Shown here: piece after piece, positions 2,857-6,213 of the stretch | Layout: each line of letters starts with the position of its first letter | How positions within the stretch are numbered: the stretch's first letter is position 1 | The notes under the pieces: generated by a model | Database searches by the model: none | What the model was told of the DNA's origin: nothing | What the model saw: only the letters and a program-made list of their open reading frames with translations | Assembly: GCA_025054525.1 (NCBI GenBank) | Contig: JANWZJ010000010.1 | Location: 1-41,028, forward strand | Source: Bacteroidia bacterium | GTDB lineage: Bacteria; Bacteroidota; Bacteroidia; SpSt-205 | DNA length: 41,028 nucleotides | Reading direction: 5' to 3' | Made by a program: the position numbers and the translations under genes

Positions 2857-2864
2857 TAACTTTG
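2857..2864 (+). promoter_or_regulatory. Bacteroidota -7 promoter element TAACTTTG
   Basis: Exact match to TAnnTTTG, ending 4 nt before the ATG at 2869. In Bacteroidota this element sits at about -7, so transcription should begin at or next to the A of the start codon, giving a leaderless mRNA. No clear -33 TTTG is present; TTAG 19 nt upstream is the nearest candidate. Confidence 0.7.
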
Positions 2865-2868
2865 CACT

Positions 2869-4125
2869 ATGCGAACTCTACTTCAAGCCCCTCTCGCGCT
2901 GTCCCTACTTTGGGCACAAGGCACCCTACGTTGGAATGAAATCAAAAACCGACTTCAGAGCCCCAAGTTCCATGGCATTAGTGAAGAAACGGCTCCTTAT
3001 GCCCGAGGAAGCACGCTCTGGGTCCCTGAGAGCGTCTTAGTGCAAAACGCTTTCGCAGGAAGCTGGGCGAACTTTACATTAGACATCACTCGGTATGATG
3101 GATTTGGGCGTCCTACGTGGGATAGCTCTTATTCCTGGGTCGCGTCCCAATGGGAGCTCGGGGTCCGCACTCAATATCTCCGCTATAGAACGGGTAGCTT
3201 TGCAAACTGGGACTCTGTTATCGTGAACTATAATCCCGCTAATCCCTTCAGCAGACAACATTTCTTTTATACTGATTTAGGAGGGGGGCGCGTCCGAGTA
3301 GAAATCAGAGATAGTCTCTGGAATGCAGATGCCAGCCGTTGGGAGTTAGGATTACGGACTTTTGTATGGACACCCCGCAGTCGCTGGATAGCTCAGCAAG
3401 CCCCTGATAGCGGGGTCTCCCAAGTATATGTCTCTGGAAATTTCCAGGACTTTTATAAGCAGTATTTCTTCTTCCGAAATAATAGGCTAGACTCTACGTT
3501 TTTGTGGATAAATTTCAGATACCTTCTCGACTTACCTAGCGACATTTATGCAGGCAGTTACACCCTCTATTCGTATGATTCTCAGAATAGACTGATACGC
3601 GAGCGGGACACAGCATGGTTCATTTCTCCAGTCTCAGGCCCGGCACAAGGTAGCTGGGTATGGTATTTCTATCAAGGTAGCGCTACGCGTCCCTTCAAAG
3701 ATAGTAGCTACTCCCGGGATTACGGCCCAAGCGGAGAAATAGACAGAAGAGTTACTCTCTACACTTACGACTCTAACGGTAATCTTATCAGAGAGGAGGT
3801 AGATACCTGTACGCAAGCCAATCCTGGGGTTTGTCGGGACTATCAGCGTACTTTGTATTCTTATATTCGCCAGCAGGCTCCTGCCTCCTTAGAAGCGCAG
3901 GTCTATCCCATCAAAGCTGCGATTCCTTCACTGCTGCGGGCAGGGGATAGAGTACTCATAGAAACAAACTATGCGGCTCCTTACCGAGTCGTAGATGCCC
4001 TCGGCCGCCTCTGGGACCAAGGGTATCTCCCAGCGGGAGAAAGCACGCTCTCGCTTCCCCTCCAGAGTGGGCTTTATATCATCCAGATAGGCACTTACCA
4101 GCAGAAGGTGCTACTGTTGCCGTGA
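2869..4125 (+). CDS. Secreted T9SS type-A sorting-domain protein with YD-repeat-like segments
   Basis: A 418-residue exported protein of unknown function. Residues 1-17 form a short signal peptide (ending LLWAQ). The body is rich in Tyr, Trp and Ser and contains strand-like repeats: HFFYTDLGGGRVRVEIRD, then LYSYDSQNRLIRERD and LYTYDSNGNLIREE, which resemble YD/RHS-type repeats. The last ~70 residues are a T9SS type-A C-terminal domain (APYRVVDALGRL, then SGLYIIQIG and a final KVLLLP), so the protein should cross the outer membrane by type IX secretion and have this tail removed or modified. The start is fixed by TAACTTTG 4 nt upstream. It is the first gene of a three-gene module, overlaps the next gene by GTGA, and has a paralogue at 4987-6213. 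Function not identifiable. Confidence 0.85.
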   Translation: MRTLLQAPLALSLLWAQGTLRWNEIKNRLQSPKFHGISEETAPYARGSTLWVPESVLVQNAFAGSWANFTLDITRYDGFGRPTWDSSYSWVASQWELGVRTQYLRYRTGSFANWDSVIVNYNPANPFSRQHFFYTDLGGGRVRVEIRDSLWNADASRWELGLRTFVWTPRSRWIAQQAPDSGVSQVYVSGNFQDFYKQYFFFRNNRLDSTFLWINFRYLLDLPSDIYAGSYTLYSYDSQNRLIRERDTAWFISPVSGPAQGSWVWYFYQGSATRPFKDSSYSRDYGPSGEIDRRVTLYTYDSNGNLIREEVDTCTQANPGVCRDYQRTLYSYIRQQAPASLEAQVYPIKAAIPSLLRAGDRVLIETNYAAPYRVVDALGRLWDQGYLPAGESTLSLPLQSGLYIIQIGTYQQKVLLLP

Positions 4126-4967
4126 AGTTCGCTTTGGCTCTGGGGAGAGCACTCCTCTCCGCCTTATTCTTCATAGGGGGAGTGGGGTGCTCTCCTTCTT
4201 TTTCTCCTTCCCAAGAATCCACCTTCTCTGAAACAGCACCAGAAACAGAAGCCTCCCACGGGAGATTAGTGTATGAGCTGATATCGGTGGAGCAGTTTCA
4301 GCAGGAAGCCATACCTTCTGCAGTAGCCCCGACTATGGTCAAGCCAGACCCTCCACTCTTCCACTCTACGCGATTATCAGTGCCCATTCCAGAAATCTGC
4401 AAAGAATCCTTACCCAACGGCATGCATGCTTATACCTTCAACGTGGAAGGAGAAGAGCATCCCAGAGAAATCAGAGATAGAATAGAGCCGGACAACGGGA
4501 TTGTATCTTGGAAGCCTGTGGGCAGTATCCAGATACGAGGCAAAAGCTATCCTATCCTCTTCTACATAGCAGGCTTCTGTGCCTCCGAAATCATAGACTT
4601 GGGATTGAAGCTATTTTTCGCAGGTGCCCCCCCAGAAGGGTTTTCCATAAACAAGTCAGACTTTGAGGACAGAAGTATCCCCATTCTACATGATCGTTAC
4701 GTCATTAGTGTGTCTCCAAGTAGAATAGCTGTATTAGATTTGGAGACGGGGCATATATATGAAGAGGGAGAGCAGTTTGCCCAACTCGCCCAGAAGGCTC
4801 CACTTTTAGAACCTTTGGGTTTTGGCCCGGTTTTTCCGTCTCCCCCTATCTTTTATGCCCTGCGTGAGCGAAAAAGGGGGTGCATCATCTATTTTCCAGG
4901 CAGCCGAGCAGAAGAAACCATCATGAACCCTTCTATACCCCCCCACTATTTGAGGGTAGAGTGGTAA
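4122..4967 (+). CDS. Unrecognised secreted protein or lipoprotein of the T9SS module
   Basis: A 281-residue protein that I do not recognise. It starts with GTG overlapping the TGA of the previous gene (GTGA), so the two are probably translationally coupled. Residues 1-23 are a signal peptide with a hydrophobic core (ALLSALFFIGGVGC) ending in Cys, suggesting lipidation, though Gly at -3 makes a weak lipobox. A Ser/Thr/Glu-rich linker follows. The rest is a mixed-composition domain with about three internal Cys; no catalytic motif stands out. Its place between two paralogous T9SS-exported proteins suggests a surface or periplasmic partner, which is inference only. The next gene begins 19 nt downstream. 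Confidence 0.75.
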   Translation: MKFALALGRALLSALFFIGGVGCSPSFSPSQESTFSETAPETEASHGRLVYELISVEQFQQEAIPSAVAPTMVKPDPPLFHSTRLSVPIPEICKESLPNGMHAYTFNVEGEEHPREIRDRIEPDNGIVSWKPVGSIQIRGKSYPILFYIAGFCASEIIDLGLKLFFAGAPPEGFSINKSDFEDRSIPILHDRYVISVSPSRIAVLDLETGHIYEEGEQFAQLAQKAPLLEPLGFGPVFPSPPIFYALRERKRGCIIYFPGSRAEETIMNPSIPPHYLRVEW

Positions 4968-4975
4968 AAGTTGAG

Positions 4976-4983
4976 TAATTTTA
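4976..4983 (+). promoter_or_regulatory. Weak -7 promoter-like element TAATTTTA
   Basis: Matches TAnnTTTG except for the final base, and lies 3 nt before the ATG at 4987, the same spacing as the exact elements in this window. It may give the broken paralogue its own promoter, or be a decayed one. Confidence 0.35.
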
Positions 4984-4986
4984 CAC

Positions 4987-6213
4987 ATGCGCCGAGCCGT
5001 AACCCTACTTTCAGTCCTAAGTTTCATGCATGCCCAGTTCTCTCGCTGGCAAGGGAAAAACTAAGTAGAAGCCCTTTATTCTCATTCTCTCGCCAGAACC
5101 GCCTCAGTTTGGCTGAGAGACAGTTTCTGGGCAGACTTGCCTGCTTCTGGAGGAGGCTGGCGGCTAGATTCTCTGGTCGTCACCCGCTATAACGCCAGCA
5201 ACCGTCCCGTCTGGGATAGCTGTCATCGGTGGAACTCAGCTACCAACCAATGGGGCTTATCCGAGCGCCATAGATATCACTACTACTCATCGGGTAGCTT
5301 CGCAGGATATGATTCCGTAATCGTCAAACATGCCCCCCTCAACCCTTCTGATAGGCAACACTTCTTCTATACTAACCTCAGCGGAGGTAGGCTACAAATA
5401 GAAATACGCGACAGTACTTTGAGTGGGGGAGGGAGTTGGAGAGCAGGTTTCCGGTATTTCATCTGGGGGCCTCGCGCTCGGCTGGAAGCTGGCGGGGATT
5501 TTGACATTCTCCTTATACAAGCCTTCTCTGGAAGTAACTGGGAAAACGCGATCCGCATCTATAACTTCCTATCTGGTGGTAGATTAGACTCTACCACAAG
5601 ATGGATAAATGTGCGCTATCTGGTAAATCTGCCAGCCGACCTTATAGTGCGTGGCTACACCTACTACTATTATGACGCCTCCAGTAGGCTTGACAGAAAA
5701 AGAGATACCCTGTGGCTTGAGAGCCCTTCATCGGGCCCCGCTCAGGCTGGCTGGACATGGTACTTCTATACGGGCAGTGCTACTCGTCCTTCCAAAGATA
5801 GTACGGTATTCAGAGATTATGGAACTGGTGTCTCTATTTCCGTAAACTTCTACACCTATGACGCCAACAGCAATCTCATCCGAGTGGAGACAGATACCTG
5901 CTCTTTCAGCAATCCCAGTATCTGCCGAGATTATCGGCGTAAGCGATATAGTTATCGCCAAGGTACCTCCATTTATATACCCTCTCTTCCTCCCTATGTC
6001 CAGCCGATCATCCCTTCTCCTGTATGTGGAGGATGCACGGTGGGGCTAACTTTAGAACAACCCACACCCTACCGAATAGTAGATATGATGGGTCACATAG
6101 TGGCAGAAGGGAATCTACCTGCGGGACAGACGACCCTACCTATACCGAGCCTTAGCGGGATATACACTATACAGATAGGGAACTACTCGCAGAAGGTACT
6201 GATTTTGCCGTAA
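4987..6213 (+). pseudogene. Paralogue of the 2869 T9SS protein, interrupted by an in-frame TAA
   Basis: A second YD-repeat-like, T9SS-type protein. The ORF track starts at a TTG (5137), but the same frame extends upstream to ATG 4987, giving a good signal peptide (MRRAVTLLSVLSFMHAQ). Codon 26 is TAA (5062-5064). Right after it the frame continues with sequence that aligns to the sister protein: KN-stop here against KNR there, then SVWLRDSFW against TLWVPESVL and RLDSLVVTRY against TLDITRY. The rest aligns throughout (RQHFFYTNLSGGRL, SGPAQAGWTWYFY, FYTYDANSNLIR) and ends in an intact sorting tail (GIYTIQIG, KVLILP). Because both sides share one frame, this is a nonsense substitution, not an indel. 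Starting after the stop would lose the signal peptide. It is thus a recent pseudogene, a recoded gene or a sequencing error. Confidence 0.8.

Follow-up and report, generated by a model that had tools for sequence, protein, structure and literature searches.

The gene that begins at ATG 4987 of the window (the whole stretch of 41,028 nucleotides of Bacteroidia DNA that was analysed) carries a single in-frame TAA behind its signal peptide, and it is probably a dispensable tandem copy of a T9SS cargo gene, inactivated recently; its closest relative lies intact on the same strand about 2 kb upstream. The presence of the single in-frame stop is confirmed, and the frame behind it continues undamaged to a T9SS-type tail. 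The main rival to a real loss is a consensus error, because the stop is known from one assembly of the species. The features of the locus are as follows.

2857–2864, + strand: TAACTTTG, Bacteroidota -7 promoter element before the sister gene, just upstream of ATG 2869
2869–4125, + strand: intact sister gene, 418 aa; it and the interrupted copy are each other's nearest relatives in the tree (support 93/94)
4122–4967, + strand: predicted lipoprotein gene of 281 aa, flanked by the two copies; it overlaps the end of the sister and stops 19 bases before ATG 4987
4976–4983, + strand: TAATTTTA, the matching place before the interrupted copy; the final G of the consensus is absent, which is not diagnostic
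4987–5061, + strand: first 25 codons of the interrupted copy, with its start and signal peptide, ending in ...MHAQFSRWQGKN; this part can be aligned to the signal peptides found in the sister and in relatives
5062–5064, + strand: in-frame TAA stop, which the family match lists as one TAA inside it
5065–6213, + strand: remainder of the same frame of the interrupted copy, 382 codons with the T9SS-type tail and a final TAA; no more stops or frameshifts

Structure of the Interrupted Copy

The original prediction held that ATG 4987 opens a signal peptide and that codon 26 is TAA, and both points are borne out on the sequence: the ATG at 4987–4989 opens MRRAVTLLSVLSFMHAQFSRWQGKN, and the TAA lies at 5062–5064 in the context AAC TAA GTA GAA. 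The frame is then open from 5065 to 6210, and its terminator is the TAA at 6211–6213; that is to say, the predicted continuation of the frame stands, while the predicted count of 383 codons comes down to 382, since 383 includes the terminator. The frame is identical on both sides of 5062–5064, so that no frameshift is involved and the change is a substitution rather than an indel, as had been proposed. The other frames tested over the downstream stretch carry 19, 22 and 13 stops, and therefore the downstream part is no chance open frame.

The downstream part aligns to the intact sister with an E value of 1.3e-104 and 48% identity, again as predicted, and the overall identity is 46%. In all three MAFFT modes the stop falls opposite an Arg of the sister (KNR), which agrees with the earlier alignment. 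The sister codon that faces the stop is CGA, two changes away from TAA, and therefore Arg was not necessarily the residue lost. Behind the stop, the linker of the interrupted copy is some 11 residues short of the sister's and is still in frame.

Protein Family and Sorting Tail

The family is a small one, of proteins with a signal peptide, YD-like beta repeats and a tail that scores near the cut-off of 23 bits of TIGR04183 (T9SS type A sorting domain). A sorting tail had been predicted for the interrupted copy; its score is borderline around this cut-off: 22.3 bits for the whole protein and 24.4 bits in the genome search. In the sister, signal peptide and tail stand in one open frame, whereas the TAA splits them in the interrupted copy. 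The sister also has an RHS_repeat match (27 bits, cut-off 22). AlphaFold2 on the pair of window sequences gave a poor model (mean pLDDT 40.9) except at the tail, and in the sister's model the tail alone is fairly confident (pLDDT 68–84) and all beta. Tails of the TIGR04183 type are abundant in the genus, with 25 to 57 matches per genome.

On the preferred reading, a nonsense change would recently have inactivated the duplicate. Ribosomes starting at ATG 4987 would translate no more than the signal peptide region, 25 residues, before stopping; the downstream part would remain untranslated, or at best would be begun at TTG 5137 without a signal peptide, in a form that could not be exported. No start with a signal peptide was found after the stop. 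The sister would keep supplying intact secreted protein, so that the loss would be tolerated. Three marks of a recent nonsense pseudogene are found here: the stop is premature when compared with homologues, no alternative start keeps the signal peptide, and there is no further lesion.

Probable Transcription Unit and Promoter Elements

The sister, the lipoprotein gene and the interrupted copy probably form one transcription unit, as is suggested by their arrangement on the DNA, because the three genes overlap or sit 19 bases apart; all three would then probably share the sister's promoter TAACTTTG. The predicted lipoprotein has no Pfam or NCBIfam match, and its single weak relative in the genus (G008:C125) is 23% identical. 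An Rfam scan returned the tRNA only.

The consensus of the Bacteroidota -7 element is TANNTTTG (PMC6847099). Loss of its final G before the interrupted copy (TAATTTTA against TANNTTTG) was considered as a second sign of decay and was set aside, because the element is found in only 24/43 intact T9SS genes and the gene is probably carried on the sister's transcript. In a survey of spacing that covered window positions 2857–2864 and loci L011–L017 and L109–L155, TANNTTTG stood 3–10 bases before the start codon in 22/133 genes of the genus, and in 0–1 at shifted positions. Because of this short distance, the transcripts of such genes may have very short leaders or none.

Upstream of the sister, at positions 2117–2868, no frame shows a recognisable gene; such a stretch of 750 bases is unusually long for so dense a genome and is possibly a degraded gene.

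Age of the Interruption

The suggestion that the change is recent is upheld by the state of the downstream part, which has no second stop or frameshift in its 382 codons and matches 44/54 of the family-conserved columns, as compared with 42/54 for the sister. The codon usage of this part is intermediate between those of the sister and the lipoprotein gene. Under simulated neutral change, the next lesion appeared after a median of 3–16 substitutions and in 95% of runs before 13–74, which corresponds to about 1–6% divergence; these values depend on the assumed indel rate. At 98 of the 188 residues that are identical between the two copies the codons differ, and therefore both copies were long kept by selection at the protein level while their DNA drifted. 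From the absence of a second lesion, the kept conserved columns and the normal codon usage we infer that the interruption is young, or is not real. An undecayed downstream part also fits a consensus error or a gene that is read through.

Distribution of the Family and Breaks in Relatives

Across the order, the family counts 9 copies, spread over 7 genomes, and an order-wide search gave none beyond those of the family-level search. It has no match in 5/11 genomes of the genus, and a shared gene neighbourhood was not found among its copies where these could be compared. Since the neighbourhoods are not shared, 5/11 genomes are without a match and a further copy (G002:C25) is broken as well, the family is accessory and its copies appear dispensable. 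The nearest genomes are only 54–59% identical in PheT, and none has an orthologue of the interrupted copy; a PheT scan of genome contigs yielded one relative at 59%, an uncultured Bacteroidia MAG, from whose genome the family is absent. The downstream protein gave no matches against plasmid records or genome contigs. The sense codon is thus visible in no close relative, and the stop may not be carried by the species as a whole. Comparison with related genomes, which had been proposed as a check, showed no stop at this position in the intact relatives, which encode one protein in one frame rather than two genes.

Two further members of the family are interrupted close to the N-terminus, each by a lesion of another type and at another position. 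The member in G007 has a TGA within its signal peptide, and that of G002:C25 (L010, about position 1530, reverse strand) is frameshifted at about codon 58, past the signal peptide and ahead of the first repeats. In G007, frameshifts also divide several other T9SS-tail genes (L158, L165, L166, L171), which suggests that this assembly of few, large contigs has residual indel errors; for this reason its TGA is not trusted, while the break in G002:C25 looks real. The apparent recurrence, with 3/9 family copies broken at the N-terminus, was accordingly discounted. The T9SS-tail genes of G000, G002 and G007 were surveyed for breaks, and assessable genes were counted in the two cleaner genomes, G000 and G002: 45/47 are intact, and both broken genes belong to this family. 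These two breaks fit a dispensable family with spare copies, although the enrichment is post hoc and concerns two genes.

Alternative Explanations

Most cells could carry an intact gene into which the stop was placed by faulty consensus or assembly, or by strain mixture in the metagenome. It has been reported that assembly errors create internal stops (PMC11017572). With 116 contigs and 92% completeness, the draft genome is consistent with a metagenome bin, and the frameshifted T9SS genes of G007, from the same genus, indicate that such errors probably occur in this genome set. Yet the other assessable T9SS-tail genes in G000, the genome of the window, are uninterrupted (17/17), as is the sister, and no other break was recognised among the genes of the window. 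Moreover, consensus sequences are seldom wrong for substitutions in non-repetitive sequence, and the change seen here is of that kind. On balance this explanation is unlikely, though it is the main rival to a real loss.

Recoding had also been raised, in which some read-through of the stop would give a little full-length protein under regulation. Such a mechanism would account for the kept downstream frame and its normal codon usage, and many bacteria have been reported to hold in-frame stops followed by sequence under purifying selection, with frequent read-through proposed (PMC7918605); but TAA is a standard terminator here, ending 10/33 window genes including the lipoprotein gene directly upstream, folding of the RNA behind the stop is no stronger than that of shuffled sequences (z -0.59), and the stop is not conserved in relatives, so that this reading is very unlikely. 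Phase variation, another of the possibilities named originally, or gene conversion could switch codon 26 by drawing on the second copy 2 kb away on the same strand, but this is scarcely credible: there is no repeat able to remove the stop while preserving the frame (those nearby are limited to A5 and to TC or GA runs of three units), the longest identity between the two copies is 11 bp, and the genome has these two copies only, with no third. As for two separate genes, a short secreted peptide followed by a downstream protein with its own start, the only possible starts soon after the stop are TTG codons, at 5137 and 5419; each falls within the conserved part and gives no signal peptide, though a T9SS tail demands export, and relatives have a single protein in a single frame, which makes this division highly improbable. 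Likewise very improbable is the broader proposal that family copies are repeatedly switched off near the signal peptide, with the stop passed at a low rate or reverting, and that a surface protein is thereby slowly turned on and off.

Significance

Most likely, then, the locus is an ordinary broken tandem duplicate, with no new gene control. As an illustration of the ordinary turnover of duplicated secreted-protein genes it matters little; its practical lesson is that, in draft genomes, the reads behind an apparent gene break should be checked before a special mechanism is proposed. Were the stop shown to be passed, the gene would exemplify stop read-through for an exported protein.

Comparison with Known Systems

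Proteins with the T9SS type A sorting domain (TIGR04183, Por_Secre_tail) resemble the window family in combining a signal peptide with a C-terminal beta-rich tail; they differ in that the window tail scores near the cut-off and that the interrupted copy, as predicted from its reading frame, would not be exportable unless the stop were passed. The suspected read-through stops of Belinky et al. 2021 (PMC7918605) likewise lie within a well-kept frame, whereas the stop of the interrupted copy is not conserved among relatives. The closest likeness is to the recent nonsense pseudogenes of bacterial paralogous families, which also have one in-frame stop, an intact downstream frame and an intact paralogue nearby; with the stop known here from one assembly, nothing essential separates the interrupted copy from them.
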